Shown one piece after another: positions 17,513 through 58,728 of a DNA stretch of 64,000 nucleotides. The notes under the pieces are model-generated. The model worked only from the letters and a program-made list of their open reading frames with translations. It did no database searches and was not told where the DNA came from. Both the position numbers and the translations under genes were made by a program. Within the stretch, counting starts at the first letter, position 1; each line of letters begins with the position of its first letter. Source of the DNA: Porphyromonas asaccharolytica DSM 20707 (lineage in GTDB: Bacteria > Bacteroidota > Bacteroidia > Bacteroidales > Porphyromonadaceae); contig NC_015501.1 of NCBI RefSeq assembly GCF_000212375.1, forward strand, positions 1,550,001 to 1,614,000. Direction: 5' to 3'.

Positions 17513-17554
17513 ATGCTTTTTCTAGACATAGGATCATCGGTACAGTGATTTTTC

Positions 17555-17654
17555 AGGGCTGACGCATTATATACAATGAACTCATCGACCTCTCTACTCC
17601 TCGCTTGTCGCTCATGTGCAGCTCCTGATAGAGCGATTATGATGCATCAGCCCT
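17555..17654. repeat. MITE-like arm, copy 1
   Basis: This 100-bp unit begins AGGGCTGACGCATTATATA and ends ATGATGCATCAGCCCT, so its termini are inverted repeats. Similar units of 85-100 bp lie at 19558-19649, 58075-58174 and 58502-58586, all in the same orientation, and share an internal CTCGCTTGTCGCT-type core and GAGCGATTAT. Here it is the left arm of a composite element whose centre is the box array. There is no coding capacity. Confidence 0.8.
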
Positions 17655-17989
17655 AGCAGGATAAATTCAACGCTGGTTCGCTACAATAATTTAGAGCTGG
17701 CTACATATCAAAACGACACTATGTCGGGGAAAAGTGATCTCCACGTGGATATTTCGAAATCTCCACGTGGATATTTTTTCTTTTCCACGTGGGAAAGAAA
17801 AAATTCCTCGGAGGAATCAAATGAAACTTCGGAGGAAATGAATGACGCCCACGTAGAAAATAAAGAATCTCCACGTGGAGATTGTCCTCTTCCTGAAAAA
17901 AGTACACAGTTGGGAAGGTGTTACTGAGATGATACACGGGTTGTTTTTGTTAATCCTGTGAGCGTTCTCATCTGTTAGTTTTGCTCCTG

Positions 17990-19030
17990 CTAGGGTACAC
18001 GACTTGTCGTCGTCTTTACTGCGGAGGTACACAAAGATAGGTCTTTGTTGGGAGTTAAGCGGCATGAGCTCGGAGATTTGAGGCTCAGAGCTTTGGGAGA
18101 ATTGTTCTTAGCTATCTGGTTCTTAGAGGGTTGGGTGGTTAGAGGGTTGGGGTAATTTGGTATGAGCATCTGCATCGGAGTCTTCTTGTTGATGGCTCGA
18201 TGAGGTCGCGCTGTGTTATAGAGAGCAATCGTTTGAGAGAGGATCTCTCGAACTTGATCTATGGGCTTATCCTCGAAGTTGTAAAGCCAGTCGTTCTTGA
18301 TGATCCCGTTAAGTCGCTCAGCCATAGCGTTGTGAAGGGGGTTTCCGGTCTGGGTGACGCTGGTTACGATGCCTAGGCTGGCCTCGTAGTCCGTCATCTG
18401 CTTGGAGACATATTGACAGCCTCGGTCGCTATGGAAGATGAGCCCTTTGAGGTCAAAGCCATGCTTCTGATAGAAGTCAACGGTCTGTCTTAGTGCGTTG
18501 TAGGGACCCTCTGTGGAGAGCGTGGGCTGCAGGTCAAAGCCGGTGATGATGCGGCTATAAGCGTCCATCGTCAGGGAGAGATATGCGAAGCCCCCTAAAC
18601 ATTTGACGTAGGTTATGTCTGAGACGGTGAGCCGGCAATGGTCGGTGGCTATGTACTTAGGGGTGGTGTTCAGGTGGTCTTGGAAGCCGTGATTGACCAC
18701 TCCCTTGGTCGTCTGGGGTGGACGCTTGCGCTTGCGACTTCTTAGTAGCATATCGTTGGCTCCTAACACTTTGTAGAGCCAGTCTCGACCTACTTGGAAG
18801 GTCCCTTTGAAGTATTCGTTGGCACACTGCTGGATGGTGTCTACGCCTGCTTTGGGGAGCTGACCGCGCACATACTGGCAATAGTGTAGGACGGAAGCTA
18901 CTTTGACATCTTCGTCTTGCTCGGTGAAGGTGTGCTTGTAGTAGCCTTTGCGGCTGACTTCTAACAGCTGACAAAGGTAGGTTATGGAGAGCTTTTGATC
19001 TCTCTCTTTGGCGGACTCAAGCTGTCTCAC
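17990..19030 (-). CDS. IS3-family transposase OrfB (DDE integrase domain)
   Basis: The frame encodes 346 residues from a GTG at 19030. It carries an HTH_21-like region (ITYLCQLLEVSRKGYY), then the rve integrase core: VSDITYVKCLGGFAYLSLTM with the following Asp, LIFHSDRGCQYVS (second Asp) and NPLHNAMAERLNGIIKNDWL (catalytic Glu). All three acidic residues are in place. It overlaps orfA by 4 bp in the -1 frame and is open upstream through an A9G run, so the working enzyme is likely an OrfAB fusion made by frameshifting rather than a free OrfB. Confidence 0.92.
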   Translation of the reverse strand: MRQLESAKERDQKLSITYLCQLLEVSRKGYYKHTFTEQDEDVKVASVLHYCQYVRGQLPKAGVDTIQQCANEYFKGTFQVGRDWLYKVLGANDMLLRSRKRKRPPQTTKGVVNHGFQDHLNTTPKYIATDHCRLTVSDITYVKCLGGFAYLSLTMDAYSRIITGFDLQPTLSTEGPYNALRQTVDFYQKHGFDLKGLIFHSDRGCQYVSKQMTDYEASLGIVTSVTQTGNPLHNAMAERLNGIIKNDWLYNFEDKPIDQVREILSQTIALYNTARPHRAINKKTPMQMLIPNYPNPLTTQPSKNQIAKNNSPKALSLKSPSSCRLTPNKDLSLCTSAVKTTTSRVP

Positions 19031-19431
19031 GGCTGCAAATCGGTCTTTTTTTTTAGATCAATGTGGTAGCGATTCAAGACCACTTCGAGTAGTGTCTTGT
19101 TGACTAATGCCTTGCTCTCAGCCTGGAAGAGGGCTGCTTTGAGACGAGCGTTTTCACGCTTGAGTTCTGCGTACTCTGGATCTACGTCTTTGTTCTTGTT
19201 TGTCTTGCTCATAGTGCTACTGGTGCTTTGGTTGGGTAACTCTACATCAAAGGTACGCAACCAATTTCGAATGGTGCGTGTGGTAATGCCGTAGCGCTGG
19301 CTGGTGGTGGCAATGCTGTCACCGGTGGCTAGGAGGTCGTCAATGACTCTCCACTTGAAATCTAGGGGATATCCCTTTCGTCCTAGTTTACTTTTTTCTT
19401 GTTTCATAGTTGTTGGGGTTGGCTTCCCCAA
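19027..19431 (-). CDS. IS3-family OrfA (helix-turn-helix)
   Basis: The 134-residue protein has an N-terminal helix-turn-helix (DSIATTSQRYGITTRTIRNW) and a C-terminal leucine-zipper-like helix (YAELKRENARLKAALFQAES). Near its end the codons for DLKKKTD contain A AAA AAG in a run of nine A residues, a classic -1 slippery site that would join it to OrfB as ...KKKDRFAAVRQLES. OrfA normally binds the IS ends and modulates transposition. Confidence 0.9.
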   Translation of the reverse strand: MGKPTPTTMKQEKSKLGRKGYPLDFKWRVIDDLLATGDSIATTSQRYGITTRTIRNWLRTFDVELPNQSTSSTMSKTNKNKDVDPEYAELKRENARLKAALFQAESKALVNKTLLEVVLNRYHIDLKKKTDLQP

Positions 19432-19557
19432 CTGTGTACTATTTCAGGAGAGGACAGATTTGAGATTTTCCACGTGGATATTCGAGAAAGGAGGGAATCG
19501 GACGAATTCCCCCGTAAAGATATGTAAACAGGGATTAGAGGTTAGAGATTAGAGATT

Positions 19558-19649
19558 AGGGCGGACACATTATATATAGTAACCTCATCTAAGCCTAGCT
19601 TGTGGCTCATATCTAGCTCCTGAAAGAGCGATTATAATACGTCAGCCCT
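19558..19649. repeat. MITE-like arm, copy 2
   Basis: A 92-bp relative of the 17555 unit, starting AGGGCGGACACATTATATA and ending ATTATAATACGTCAGCCCT. It is the right arm of the composite element split by the IS. Just before it (19533-19560) are short TTAGAG/TTAGAGA tandem units. Downstream is a run of ten T residues and no gene until 20046. Confidence 0.75.
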
Positions 19650-19754
19650 GAGTTTTTTTTTTGCGCATACACATTGGGTAGCTAGATACTATCCGTGCCT
19701 CCCTACAGATCGCTACACGTCAGGTTTTGACACAACGTCACTTGTCAGATTTCC

Positions 19755-19806
19755 TCACGTGGGGATTTCCAAATAGCCACGTGGAAAATGTCAAATCCCC
19801 ACGTGG
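19755..19806. repeat. Three-box half array
   Basis: TCACGTGG (19755), CCACGTGG (19777) and CCACGTGG (19799) are spaced exactly 22 bp apart, equal to one half of the six-box array, with no central module or second half. It lies about 240 bp upstream of the LRR gene start at 20046. The rest of 19650-20045 holds CCTCCCTACAGATCG and a TTGACACAACGT string shared with the 4.0-kb intergenic region, and no recognisable gene. Confidence 0.8.
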
Positions 19807-20045
19807 CTATATCGTGTCTGATAGTCTCTGCCCTGTCCTCTTCCTGAAAATGGTACAGATTAGAATGCGCTAGACTAGTTCTCTCTCTCAGTACTTCAAA
19901 ATAAAAATTAGCCTAGAAGGTAGTCAGCTGCTCAGAGATGAAACTTGGTTGGCCGTTAGATCAAAAAAATATATCTACCTTCGTGGAGGTCGTAAAGAAC
20001 TTGGCGAATGCTACACATCTAACTAATAATCTCAATAGCACACCT

Positions 20046-22564: not shown

Positions 22565-22616
22565 TGCTGTATCTAGTCATAGGGTGTGCTGGCATAGAAG
22601 AGCGATGCAACCATAC

Positions 22617-22776
22617 TCACGTGGATATTTTCAAATGCCTTGGTAGAGAAAAAAGATTTTCCACGTAGGGGAGAAACATTTCCTCCGAAGTTTCGTTTGA
22701 TTCTTCCGAAGTTTTATTTCTTCTCCACGTGGGAAATCTTTCTTTTCCACGTGAGAATTTTCGATTTCCTACGTGG
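22617..22776. repeat. Six-box CCACGTGG-type array, copy at 22.6 kb
   Basis: Boxes at 22617 (TCACGTGG), 22639 (degenerate), 22661 (CCACGTAG), 22725 (CCACGTGG), 22747 (CCACGTGA) and 22769 (CTACGTGG) keep the spacing 22, 22, 64, 22, 22 even where the box is worn. The central module is in the opposite orientation to the 17.7- and 58.3-kb copies (TCCTCCGAAG ... TTCCGAAG). No MITE-like arms flank it. It sits between the convergent ends of the LRR gene and dprA. Confidence 0.9.
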
Positions 22777-22835
22777 GGAACAGTTTTCTCGCTTTGTCGT
22801 TTCAGTTTTTTGTCGGACAGGAGTCAATACAAAAA

Positions 22836-35064: not shown

Positions 35065-36059
35065 AACTATTCGAATGCTCTTTGGGTAGCTATACCATCA
35101 CGATAGTGTGGAATAGCTTCTAGCAGGGTAGTGCGCCTTGCAGCGACCTCCCTAGAGTCTGTTAAACTGGTCAACAGGACTCTCCTAGAGCGGAACAGTG
35201 ACCACGATGCTTGTCTGGAGAGGGTATTGGGCTACGTGAGACTCTCTTCGTGGGAGAGTAGGGTGGTAGTCGCTGGTCTTTTTCAACACACACTTAACCT
35301 GTAACCAGTGGTACGCACCATACCTGTCTCTTAGTAGTGGATCCTCTCGACTTGAGAGTGTGAGGCTGTGACCTCACCTTAGGACTCGCATCATGATTTG
35401 CTCGGGGTGGCAAGAGGATCTATTGGTCTATCACCTAGCCTTGGGTAGACGAACTAGAACCTACAGCTTCTCCTCAAGTGGTAAGTATGTACAGTGGTCG
35501 CTCTGCTCGGAGTCTGCGGTGACACAGACTGATCTAGTTCGCACGCACTAGCGTAGTTGCATATAGGGACAACGGCATAGACGAGAGCCTGCTCTTATGC
35601 TTCCTCTTATTGTGACGATCAGACACCTAATTGATCTCGTGCGGCATGGGTGCTGTGATAGCACGCATACTTTTATGGTACTCATAGAGATCGCAGCAGC
35701 AAGACATTGCTCAATCACTTTATCGAAAACGTTCCCCTATTTAAAGTAAATGTCCTCCTATCTAGTCTCGTATAAGCATCCAAAGAGTCTCCTAGGTGCA
35801 TCGCTGTGATCAAAGCTTTTTGACTCGGAAGGTTGTGTCACAGCTACTGCTCGTATCAAAGAAAGCCGGTAGGCACTCAAGATGTCCCATTCAATACTCA
35901 TCGTGGTGTGATGCCTAGATGCATCGCTCGCATTGTAACATACATCTCCTGTCGCGCTCGACTCGGAGTAGCGAGGAGCGTACAGCTGAGGGAATAGAAG
36001 TCTCAGACTAGGATCTGAAAAGTGACGGTTATTTCCTTATGCTATACCTCGTAGCGCTT

Positions 36060-36250
36060 CAAGCCTTGCAGGTCTTCTGACTTACCTCATACAGACATCC
36101 CTTCCCACACCAATTAGACATGGTGCAGTGGTTATGATGCCTGCTTTGCGAGGATTACAGCAGCGGGACTGTTCAGGAGTTTCACCTGATTCCCTTTTAA
36201 GCCTTGAGGACTCCGAGCCCCTACTCGAGGGTTGAAAGAGTACTCTCAGC
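36060..36250 (-). promoter_or_regulatory. Cobalamin (B12) riboswitch
   Basis: Read on the minus strand the leader shows the conserved cobalamin aptamer text in order: AAAAGGGAATCAGGTGAAAC, CAGTCCCGCTGCTGTAATCC, CCACTG, GGGAAGGGATG, and GTCAGAAGACCTGC (the B12-box end, opposite strand GCAGGTCTTCTGAC at 36068-36081). Family, order and spacing fit class I cobalamin riboswitches. It starts within a few nucleotides of the predicted transcription start. No start codon or gene is visible where the regulated gene should begin, so its control is more likely over transcription of the downstream RNA. Confidence 0.93.
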
Positions 36251-36293: not shown

Positions 36294-36396
36294 GCTTCGG
36301 GCACCTTTTTTTGACGAAAAATGAAAACCTCTCCTCAAAGGGACCAACACGCTCCAAGTGGAGAGCTCGCAAGATATTGGTGCAGTAATGCAATCC

Positions 36397-36556
36397 CTAC
36401 GTGGATATTTCTCATTCTCCACGTGAGAAATGAAAATTCTCCACGTGGGCGTGATTCATTTCCTCCGAAGTTTCATTTGATTCCTCCGAAGTTTCATTTC
36501 TCGCCTACGTGGAGAATTTTTTTTCTCCACGTGGGGATTTTCTATTTCCTACGTGG
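36397..36556. repeat. Six-box CCACGTGG-type array, copy at 36.4 kb
   Basis: Boxes at 36397 (CTACGTGG), 36419 (CCACGTGA), 36441 (CCACGTGG), 36505 (CTACGTGG), 36527 (CCACGTGG) and 36549 (CTACGTGG) show the 22, 22, 64, 22, 22 spacing. The centre has two TCCTCCGAAG motifs separated by TTTCATTTGAT. It lies between the start of the B12-riboswitch unit and the asd promoter, 88 bp before the asd -33 box. No MITE-like arms are present. Confidence 0.92.
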
Positions 36557-36643
36557 ATATCTTTCTGATGTGTGTGCGGAGTGAAGGTCGTGTCTACGGA
36601 TCCTTTTTCTTAGTTGCGCGAGGTGATGTATGGTGGGTTACTT

Positions 36644-44455: not shown

Positions 44456-44824
44456 TTGAATAGGTGTATGAAGGGTTACAAGATTAAATCTGTTTAGAAG
44501 TCAAATCGTAAATAAATTAAATCTGACTCCGCGAAATCCTCTGCAATATTACAACCAATAATTGACGTGGGCAAATAAATCAACTGGAAAAGCATCAATT
44601 GTTGAAAAGTTGTCCGTATTAAAAGTGTAATTACTTCATATGTAGACTTATACGTATATTGTGCGTGTTCGCAAGTTGACTGTTTTGAAAACTCACCTTT
44701 GTGGGAAACTGCACAATACTTGCGTAAATGGTTGGCTATGTGGCTTAAAATGGTCTTTCAATTAGGGTTGTCTAGGTCTTCTCTCTAAGAATATCTCGAT
44801 CTTGCTCAGGCGTTCAGTAGATTT
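44456..44824. other. AT-rich intergenic region upstream of nrdJ
   Basis: This stretch is visibly richer in A and T than its neighbours and holds no gene or recognisable riboswitch. CACCTTTG at about 44692-44699 on the plus strand is a near match to a -7 element with no obvious gene to serve. It probably contains the nrdJ promoter, but no exact TAnnTTTG was found on the minus strand. Confidence 0.4.
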
Positions 44825-44984
44825 CCACGTAGAGAATCTTAAAAATCTCCGTGGAGATTTTTTATTTGCCACGTGGGCAAGAATCATTTCCTCCGAAGTT
44901 TCATTTGATTCCTCCGAAGTTTTATTTCTCGCCTACGTGGAGAATAATTTTTCCTCACGTGGATATTTCCAAATATTCACGTGG
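44825..44984. repeat. Six-box CCACGTGG-type array, copy at 44.8 kb
   Basis: Boxes at 44825 (CCACGTAG), 44847 (CTCCGTGG), 44869 (CCACGTGG), 44933 (CTACGTGG), 44955 (TCACGTGG) and 44977 (TCACGTGG) keep the 22, 22, 64, 22, 22 spacing. The centre again has two TCCTCCGAAG motifs. The spacer between the last two boxes, ATATTTCCAAATAT, is nearly palindromic. It sits between divergent nrdJ and the beta-barrel gene. Confidence 0.92.
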
Positions 44985-45056
44985 AGATCGGCTTCTTGCT
45001 TGCGAGAGTGCCACCGATCCTAGGGTATTGGTATTGCGTATCTTCTGAAAGATTCC

Positions 45057-58032: not shown

Positions 58033-58074
58033 CGAAAGTAAGAGGACATAGCCAGGGTGACGCATTACAACGGC

Positions 58075-58174
58075 AGGGCTGACGCATTATATACAGTGAG
58101 TTCATCTATCGCCTTATTTCTCGCTTGTCGCTAATGTGTAGCTTCTGAAAGAACGATTATGATGCGTTAGCCCT
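58075..58174. repeat. MITE-like arm, copy 3
   Basis: 100 bp with inverted ends AGGGCTGACGCATTATATA and ATTATGATGCGTTAGCCCT. It is the left arm of the 58-kb composite and is closely similar to 17555-17654. A worn terminal copy (AGGGTGACGCATTA) lies just before it at 58054-58067. Confidence 0.8.
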
Positions 58175-58260
58175 GACTGGGCAAATTAGGCGCTGGCTCG
58201 TTACAATAATTTATAACCAACTACATATCGATACGGAGCTATGTTGGGGAAAACTGATTT

Positions 58261-58420
58261 CCACGTGGAGATTTCGAAATATCCACGTGGAGGATTTTTA
58301 TTTCCCACGTGGGGAAGAAAAAACTCTTCGGAGGAATCAAATGAAACTTCGGAGGAAGTGAATCACGCCCACGTGGAAAATAAAAAATATCCACGTGGAG
58401 ATTTGAGATTTTCCACGTGG
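58261..58420. repeat. Six-box CCACGTGG array, best-preserved copy
   Basis: All six boxes, at 58261, 58283, 58305, 58369, 58391 and 58413, are perfect CCACGTGG, with spacing 22, 22, 64, 22, 22. The centre has two CTTCGGAGGAA motifs (58326-58336 and 58347-58357) 21 bp apart. The halves are roughly mirror images: outer spacers are near-palindromes and inner spacers are T-rich on the left and A-rich on the right. This copy serves as the reference for the family. Confidence 0.95.
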
Positions 58421-58501
58421 ATATTCGAGAAAGGAGGGAATCGGACGAGTTCCTTCGTAAATATATGTAAAGCCACAAGAGGTGAGGATCGCGAGAATCC
58501 A

Positions 58502-58586
58502 TGGGCTGACACATTACATTCTAATGACCTCATCTATTTCTCACTTGTCGCTAATGTGTAGCTCCTAATTATAATGCGTCAGCCCT
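58502..58586. repeat. MITE-like arm, copy 4
   Basis: An 85-bp arm, TGGGCTGACACATTACA ... TATAATGCGTCAGCCCT, lacking the internal GAAAGAGCG piece of the other copies. It is the right arm of the 58-kb composite, in the same orientation as the left arm. Confidence 0.75.
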
Positions 58587-58728
58587 GATTACAACGGCTA
58601 ATTCCTATTTTGAGGTGCTGAGGGAGAAGCTACATTTTGACAGCACCTCTTACACAGTCATTATGATCACTGATTACACATTTGTTTTCCCCATCTATGT
58701 CTCCAGTCTCAAACACATCAACTGTTGC

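Follow-up and report, generated by a model that had tools for sequence, protein, structure and literature searches.

BrickBuilt of P. gingivalis (Klein et al., 2015, PMC4596501) is described as a MITE with IS5-type ends and with internal 23-nt repeats, a length near two helical turns, which form a head-to-tail minisatellite of 1 to 22.8 copies; the element is always intergenic, gains or loses whole repeat units and is present in 19 copies in ATCC 33277, and even chromosomal spacing is not among the features given in the accessible part of that description. The same source lists MITE239, MITE464/PgRS and MITE700 of P. gingivalis, one of them with 41-nt internal repeats. Outside this genus, REP/BIME sequences with RAYT transposases are presented, in the accessible parts of two papers (PMC2817692, PMC6907758), as palindromic units placed at regular distance, intergenic, exceeding 100 copies and specific to the species or strain in sequence, and as candidate supercoil barriers. 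One BIME impeded supercoil diffusion in E. coli, where topological domains of 10-400 kb with random barriers are reported; according to the same part of that source, most of the barriers that delimit bacterial topological domains have yet to be identified, and they are commonly assumed to be placed at random (PMC6907758).

The array reported here was analyzed in P. asaccharolytica (genome G000), starting from a window of 64,000 bp (positions 1,550,001-1,614,000 of its single contig). It shares with BrickBuilt a MITE context within Porphyromonas, a repeat of about two helical turns, the intergenic position and the gain or loss of whole units, but it is a fixed eight-unit array of other sequence: by inspection, neither the BrickBuilt 23-nt repeat AGAYCATARTATCCTCTCRTRTG nor the IS5-type ends were matched by the array units or ends. 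The terminal repeats of the other three P. gingivalis MITEs, as given in table 2 of PMC4596501, also differ from those of both array vehicles. The palindromic units at regular distance, the intergenic position, the copy number above 100 and the species- or strain-specific sequence of REP/BIME recur in the array, which would likewise be a candidate supercoil barrier; the array differs in its fixed number of units, in having at least two MITE vehicles (one of ISAs1 type) and in its position upstream of promoters; the GTAG or CGTC head of REP/BIME was not seen at the boxes in the consensus of 86 arrays. BIME is the nearest functional precedent. The initial annotation of the window knew of no described element with this layout, and none was found in searches of the open-licence literature.

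Organization of the array

The array at 58261 comprises eight palindrome-like units following one another at steps of 22-22-22-21-21-22-22 bp, i.e., at a pitch of about two helical turns. It had been annotated as six boxes with spacings of 22-22-64-22-22 bp around a central module with two motifs. These boxes and spacings were reproduced at 58261, 17741, 22617, 36397 and 44825, and both motifs are present, but the 64-bp centre resolves into 22+21+21 bp and contains two further TTCGGAGGA units at 58327 and 58348, which raises the unit count to eight and makes the centre a part of the array pitch instead of a separate module. The features in the window are as follows.

58255-58427, plus strand: eight-unit array, boxes and centre (profile HMM 171.5 bits at 58258-58427)
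58261, 58283, 58305 (boxes); 58327, 58348 (centre); 58369, 58391, 58413 (boxes): single units of this array
58327-58357, plus strand: array centre, two TTCGGAGGA units 21 bp apart (centre-motif search)
22612-22779, minus strand: array with worn boxes (profile HMM 136.6 bits)
36390-36559, minus strand: array (profile HMM 151.5 bits)
44820-44987, minus strand: array (profile HMM 156.3 bits)
19752-19807, plus strand: half array of three boxes (box search; profile HMM 35.2 bits)

In total, the window holds five eight-unit arrays (17738 and 58258 on the plus strand; 22612, 36390 and 44820 on the minus strand) and one half array at 19752, the latter being the genuine counterpart of the three-box half copy annotated at 19755. 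At no more than one mismatch, CCACGTGG occurs 50 times in the window versus 18.8 ± 3.9 times in shuffled sequences (0 of 100 shuffles as high), and the centre motif gives 5 matches versus 0 expected. No Rfam family matched the array at gathering scores, the window holding only a cobalamin riboswitch and tRNA by this search; the riboswitch (36052-36243, minus strand, 88.1 bits) adjoins the array at 36390.

Copy number and divergence in the genome

The P. asaccharolytica genome (one contig, 2,186,370 bp) carries at least 116 arrays. They result from the merging of 63 forward and 66 reverse matches of the centre pattern at no more than three mismatches, and the reversed control of this pattern gave zero matches. 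The pattern misses some arrays, as the profile HMM added 6 arrays of at least 60 bits among the 52 in two 400-kb stretches (4 of 23 in 1-400 kb and 2 of 29 in 480-880 kb). In the 92 two-centre arrays (five three-centre variants were excluded from 97), 493 of the 499 placeable boxes stood at the exact offset, 53 of the 552 boxes being too worn to place. Mean pairwise identity among 86 distinct copies was 74% (an average difference of 26%), so the set does not consist of identical copies made recently. Near-identical copies (97% or more), N-containing rows, worn copies and six interrupted or misaligned rows were dropped from the comparisons where stated. The idea that geometry is constrained while sequence drifts, proposed from the window, thus holds genome-wide: spacing does not vary freely, and the copies are no identical recent duplicates. 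The spacing is not universal, since in some copies a third TTCGGA unit stands in for box 3; at one orthologous site (L019/L043) the matched stretches of 206 and 184 bp differ by 22 bp, the length of one unit.

MITE vehicles of the array

The 58261 and 17741 copies sit inside a larger ISAs1-type MITE that was absent from the initial annotation.

58074-58587, plus strand: ISAs1-type MITE of 514 bp carrying the 58261 array (terminal repeats, empty site, transposase beside the same end elsewhere)
58064-58073, no strand: left 10-bp target duplication ATTACAACGG (sequence and empty site)
58588-58597, no strand: right 10-bp target duplication ATTACAACGG (sequence and empty site)
17554-19650, plus strand: second ISAs1-type MITE with the array at 17738-17893, box 6 at 19470 and an IS at about 17884-19457, which splits the array as annotated before

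The inverted terminal repeats of the 514-bp element are formed by CAGGGCTGACGCATTATA read from 58074 (plus strand) and from 58587 (minus strand). Its exact empty site, with ATTACAACGG in single copy, was found in locus L250, and two further contigs (L147, L222) lack the element less cleanly. At no more than two mismatches, the CAGGGCTGACGCATTATA ends occur at 30 sites of the genome; an array lies no farther than about 2.1 kb from 26 of these sites. The same ISAs1 ends bound a 15.35-kb segment (G000:874133-889484) with the 10-bp duplication GATTAGGAGT; two ORFs beside its right end cover positions 1-115 and 117-314 of the 314-position ISAs1 model NF033564, and so, judging from the sequence, the transposase gene looks broken, while the left end has short ORFs only. 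Hence the inverted terminal repeats, the target duplication with its empty site and the ends held in common with a transposase-bearing element were all found for the ISAs1-type MITE. The interior of the 15.35-kb segment (L340) contains GmrSD-type restriction genes and a large helicase-like protein.

A second vehicle with the ends GGCTAATTCCTATTTTGAGGTGCTG stands at a fixed distance from the array (41 or 102 bp on the left, 78 bp on the right). Its 8-bp target duplication is exact in L311 (GATACGGA) and L313 (CTATGTTG), has one or two mismatches in L303, L330 and L331, and was not seen at L272; by its inverted terminal repeats and target duplication this vehicle is a MITE as well. Among 92 arrays, 19 are of ISAs1 type by flank; of the remaining 73, 22 are bordered on one or both sides by an end resembling that of the second vehicle, and 51, about half of all, have neither vehicle at the thresholds used. 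The latter may be old MITE copies, the array probably persisting after its vehicle decays. A non-autonomous mobile unit was among the options initially considered; that the array is the cargo of at least two MITEs had not been foreseen.

In four arrays (window 17884-19457; L054 and L299 in G000; L119 in G025), the same IS with the ends CTTCCTGAAAAAAGTACACAG is found immediately 3' of a box, as if the arrays were its target; the window copy has an rve-type integrase core, and an end of this IS also abuts the L016 array. In the left flank of the ISAs1-type MITE (e.g., window 58212-58250), CCAAC...GTTGG in L001/L002 corresponds to CCGAC...GTCGG in others, a pairing that looks compensatory, though L007 breaks it.

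Sequence constraint and covariation

The boxes and the centre of the array are constrained. In the ISAs1-type family (43 copies from G000 and G025, six interrupted or misaligned rows having been dropped from 49), mean pairwise difference was 0.070 in the boxes and 0.057 in the centre, whose conservation arises partly by construction, as most arrays were retrieved with the centre motif; the spacers, left flank and right flank gave 0.165, 0.155 and 0.093, respectively. The 35 nearest-neighbour pairs of this family differed per site by 0.047 in the array versus 0.113 and 0.064 in the flanks, with 0.17 indels per kb versus 1.02 and 1.30. Over all pairs, the whole array difference was 0.114, i.e., above that of the right flank (0.093), and its 3.05 indels per kb exceeded the rates of both flanks; the mixing of two- and three-centre variants probably explains these high figures in part. 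The nearest neighbours carried by the second vehicle (12 copies) showed 0.041 in the array versus 0.146 and 0.074 in the flanks.

Covariation between boxes was examined in 75 of the 86 arrays. It links box 5 with box 6 (17 double changes, spread over 11 arrays, versus 2.6 by permutation, z 8.0), none of the other pairs among the 15 exceeding z 2.6 by Watson-Crick score; with all 86 arrays kept, other pairs reached up to z 5.2 versus 7.2 for boxes 5-6. In an unbiased scan the 5-6 helix came first at z 8.9, but a parallel-diagonal control reached 8.2, and relatedness may therefore explain part of the signal. The scans of the P. uenonis families were not clearly above their controls. When each box was scored against itself, boxes 1-3 reached z 3.0-4.3, and the values of boxes 4-6 lay between -0.8 and 1.1.

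Several structural candidates were tried and rejected: dimer-site palindromes, with own-box covariation in boxes 1-3 only; a long single hairpin pairing boxes 1-6, 2-5 and 3-4, which did not clearly covary (Watson-Crick z not above 1.3); and intrinsic curvature, the end-to-end to contour ratio being 0.829 versus 0.849 ± 0.096 in shuffled sequences (60 of the 86 arrays). Single folds of the array are very stable on both strands (RNA -84 kcal/mol, z -11.4).

Gene context

As had been noted in the window, the arrays are intergenic: none of 92 lies inside an ORF of 200 aa or more, the ORFs being our own calls of 90 aa or more and not an annotation. Where both neighbours were called (84 arrays), these were divergent in 34 cases, co-oriented in 45 and convergent in 5. 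The neighbours of the 58261 array, arginine decarboxylase and a DUF488 protein, differ in function. TAnnTTTG is a promoter consensus of Bacteroidota. Beside the 73 non-ISAs1 arrays this box occurs 90 times facing outward versus 12 times inward, 64 of the 90 outward boxes standing at 60-160 bp from the array, and within the arrays it was found 4 times in 92 on both strands. The arrays are thus placed upstream of promoters and seem to lie mostly outside transcripts; therefore, their action as DNA is favoured. The option of RNA hairpins, left open initially, is disfavoured by this position.

An array is present in 12 of the 26 divergent gaps of the 480-880 kb stretch versus 16 of 95 other gaps (p 0.003); the enrichment was not found in 1-400 kb (6 of 28 versus 17 of 99, p 0.39), and we are unsure about a preference for divergent gaps. 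The depletion of convergent gaps (5 of 84 in the first sample) was not significant in either stretch (3 of 28 versus 17 of 93, p 0.26, in 480-880 kb; 3 of 23 versus 16 of 104, p 0.54, in 1-400 kb). Strand polarity along the replichores of G000 was considered and rejected: with the origin and the terminus placed tentatively by the GC skew of the fetched stretches, 56 arrays are on the leading and 60 on the lagging strand. In 1.0-1.8 Mb of G025, 30 arrays are forward and 5 reverse, a polarity that G000 does not have.

Distribution in related genomes

A 246-bp query matched at E 0.001 in 6 of 26 Porphyromonas genomes, P. asaccharolytica included, one of the six (G015) giving just two short matches; the carriers among the matches listed are Porphyromonas uenonis 60-3, P. 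uenonis DSM 23387 (G023) and an uncultured Porphyromonas. The centre pattern was found in 3 of 393 genomes sampled across the order, a sample excluding G021, G024 and G025: in P. asaccharolytica, in G023 and, with two matches, in one genome of another genus of the same family. Phages and plasmids searched with the array at E 1e-5 gave no match.

The centre is common to the species and the boxes differ, being CCACGTGG in P. asaccharolytica and G025, TTCCTACCTAGGAA-like in G023 and CTCCACGGAGG-like in G024, with all three box types present in G023. Measured from centre to centre, the steps of the second, TTCCTACCTAGGAA-like type are for the most part 21 or 23 bp (out of 317, 232 fall within 21-23 bp, most others being multiples), and the third, CTCCACGGAGG-like type has a 21-bp step in 126 of 267 cases, with many others being multiples. 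The arrays of the relatives keep the pitch, mostly 21-23 bp per unit, with other boxes. Array turnover is high: at 3 of 30 G025 loci, both flanks were found beside a fetched G000 array. This change of box sequence between species, like the even spacing of the whole set (see below), had no place in the initial annotation.

In L062 (1456-1560) and L101, from G023 and G024, the array breaks off directly behind its second centre unit, and in both loci the non-array sequence that continues from there is TATAAACRTCTCGTTTATAG..., possibly an integration junction; no recognised transposase occurs among the listed ORFs of these two loci.

Spacing along the chromosome

To our knowledge, even spacing of the kind observed here has been shown for no other intergenic repeat array of bacteria. 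In the whole G000 genome, the 116 arrays have a gap CV of 0.557 versus 0.988 at random, with a mean gap of 18.8 kb; none of 20,000 uniform placements was as even (minimum CV 0.691). Gaps under 5 kb number 4 versus 26.9 expected, and gaps over 40 kb number 6 versus 13.9. The first spacing run covered arrays up to 1.47 Mb and was repeated on the complete list. In 0-1.8 Mb of G025, 88 arrays have CV 0.59 (0 of 5,000 random placements as even). A bootstrap intergenic-spacing null gave CV 0.94 with a minimum of 0.67 of 4,000. A different palindromic repeat of G000 is clustered (29 sites, CV 1.50).

The first search for missed arrays was confined to long gaps (about 195 kb) and yielded 3 full arrays and some partial ones, the full arrays lying at about 374.9, 1,052.4 and 1,998.0 kb, inside three of the four long gaps read; the fourth (1,348-1,393 kb) contained no full array by profile HMM. 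Because that search was aimed at long gaps, two contiguous 400-kb stretches were scanned with the profile HMM and compared with random choices among each stretch's own non-convergent intergenic gaps. The 480-880 kb stretch, picked by hand with pattern positions known and not including in full any of the six gaps over 40 kb, has 29 arrays with CV 0.378 versus 0.860 (0 of 20,000; minimum 0.442) and zero gaps under 6 kb versus 8.6 expected. The 1-400 kb stretch, chosen by coordinate, gave a weaker but significant result, with 23 arrays at CV 0.484 versus 0.895 (P 0.0007) and 2 gaps under 6 kb versus 5.9 expected (P 0.023). In P. uenonis DSM 23387, 24 arrays have CV 0.72 (P 0.078 against uniform placement, 0.093 among intergenic gaps), with 5 gaps under 5 kb versus 6.2 expected, in a sample of 380 kb of one contig that mixes three box types and counts as two arrays two pieces 1.9 kb apart, perhaps one split array. 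Evenness is therefore shown for two genomes, in which most of the arrays recovered belong to the CCACGTGG type, and not for the P. uenonis sample.

The ISAs1-type arrays keep away from other arrays: over the first 1.47 Mb of G000 their median distance to these is 17.7 kb versus 6.5 kb (P 0.0005), and in G025 only 2 of 29 lie within 7 kb of others versus 12.6 expected, where the "other" arrays may include unrecognised ISAs1-type copies. Avoidance between ISAs1-type and second-vehicle arrays was not significant (1 of 21 within 8 kb versus 3.3 expected, P 0.13). Taken alone, the ISAs1-type class has CV 1.01 in G000 (15 copies) and 0.60 in G025 (29, P 0.003), and the remaining arrays have CV 0.72 in G000 (62, P 0.004); those outside the known ISAs1 type in G025 are not even (61, CV 1.02). 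A hard exclusion of 8-9 kb alone reproduces the whole-genome CV of G000. Close pairs (<10 kb) face the same way in 5 of 10 cases in G000 and in 3 of 10 in G025.

Possible nature of the array

A protein-bound array would be consistent with the pitch and the palindrome-like form of the units, with the location upstream and with the way in which copies avoid one another. We tentatively prefer, as possible rather than probable, the reading of a MITE-borne array that binds protein at the DNA level and works like a BIME-type insulator. The eight palindrome-like units, one per two helical turns, form a modular DNA array carried about the chromosome as cargo by at least two MITE families with different ends; a candidate protein or nucleoid factor would bind the units side by side on one face of the DNA, and the bound array, lying upstream and for the most part not transcribed, would separate transcription units as a roadblock or insulator, as is thought for BIMEs in E. 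coli, with a presumed topological or architectural effect. New copies might be retained where there is no array within roughly 6-10 kb, which would lead to even spacing, and in this case selection rather than immunity would lie behind it; a protein-bound array would serve best at one per 10-20 kb. Several facts speak against the insulator. The box sequence differs between species, which sits uneasily with a host regulator that has over 100 sites, and the covariation of boxes 5-6 is not predicted by a pure dimer-site model. The P. uenonis sample is not significantly even, avoidance between vehicles is not significant, the G025 arrays not assigned to the ISAs1 type are not even alone, and the 8-9 kb exclusion suffices for the CV. 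Furthermore, the divergent-gap enrichment of one 400-kb stretch failed in the other, and the all-pairs array difference and indel rate exceed those of the right flank and of both flanks, respectively. The even spacing gives a hint of a role in organising the chromosome. It is rather doubtful that the array is a chromosome-spacing element, in which case the cell would maintain roughly one array per 14-19 kb, drawn from several MITEs, as regular domain boundaries with a box code that is exchanged as a whole from one species to the next. If true, this would make candidate boundaries countable and might be an instance of MITE cargo taken over to organise the chromosome.

It is also possible that the array is selfish cargo, i.e., transposase-binding or parasitic DNA with no host role, near which insertion is blocked or close copies are lost. 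The arrays ride on MITEs, their gap distribution fits the hard exclusion, and direct avoidance between the two vehicles is not significant; the target immunity of Mu and Tn7 blocks nearby insertion, and their ends bear transposase sites of about 22 bp, which the array pitch resembles. However, since ISAs1-type arrays avoid arrays with another or no vehicle (some G025 classes being unassigned), immunity would have to lie in the array itself; moreover, the ISAs1-type copies alone are even in G025 but not in G000, and the absence of inverted-order enrichment among the close pairs of G000 weakens a loss by direct-repeat deletion. If true, this explanation would mean an exclusion between copies that have no recognisable common vehicle. 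Plain MITE debris without function, in which gap-free copies reflect nothing but descent from few master copies, agrees with the MITE vehicles and the high turnover, but is unlikely given that the boxes and the centre are less variable than the spacers and the flanks of the vehicle, with the second vehicle behaving likewise, and it is strained by the even spacing of the whole genome and of both 400-kb stretches.

A transcription factor binding the units as an operator array, its regulon being spread by MITEs, would account for the distance of most outward TAnnTTTG boxes from the non-ISAs1 arrays; even spacing is not expected of a regulon, the boxes change wholesale between species and the genes at 58261 are unlike in function, which makes this explanation improbable. 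Most improbable appears an RNA or single-strand hairpin element, either as a long hairpin or with the last two boxes as a terminal hairpin. The stable folds and the covariation of boxes 5-6 agree with it, but pairs 1-6, 2-5 and 3-4 do not clearly covary, the arrays lie upstream of promoters and rarely contain one, the control diagonal came near the 5-6 signal in the unbiased scan, and template-switch repair of palindromes could possibly give covariation as well.

Other repeats near the arrays

Octamer-like purine-strand repeats (TTAGAGGTTAGAGATTAG) flank many arrays and are inverted on the opposite side (e.g., window 19530-19560). A clustered palindromic repeat of G000, ACGCACGAGCCGTGCGTCC, with 52 matches at no more than two mismatches (e.g., at 1155725-1156349), is often present in the same intergenic regions as the arrays.
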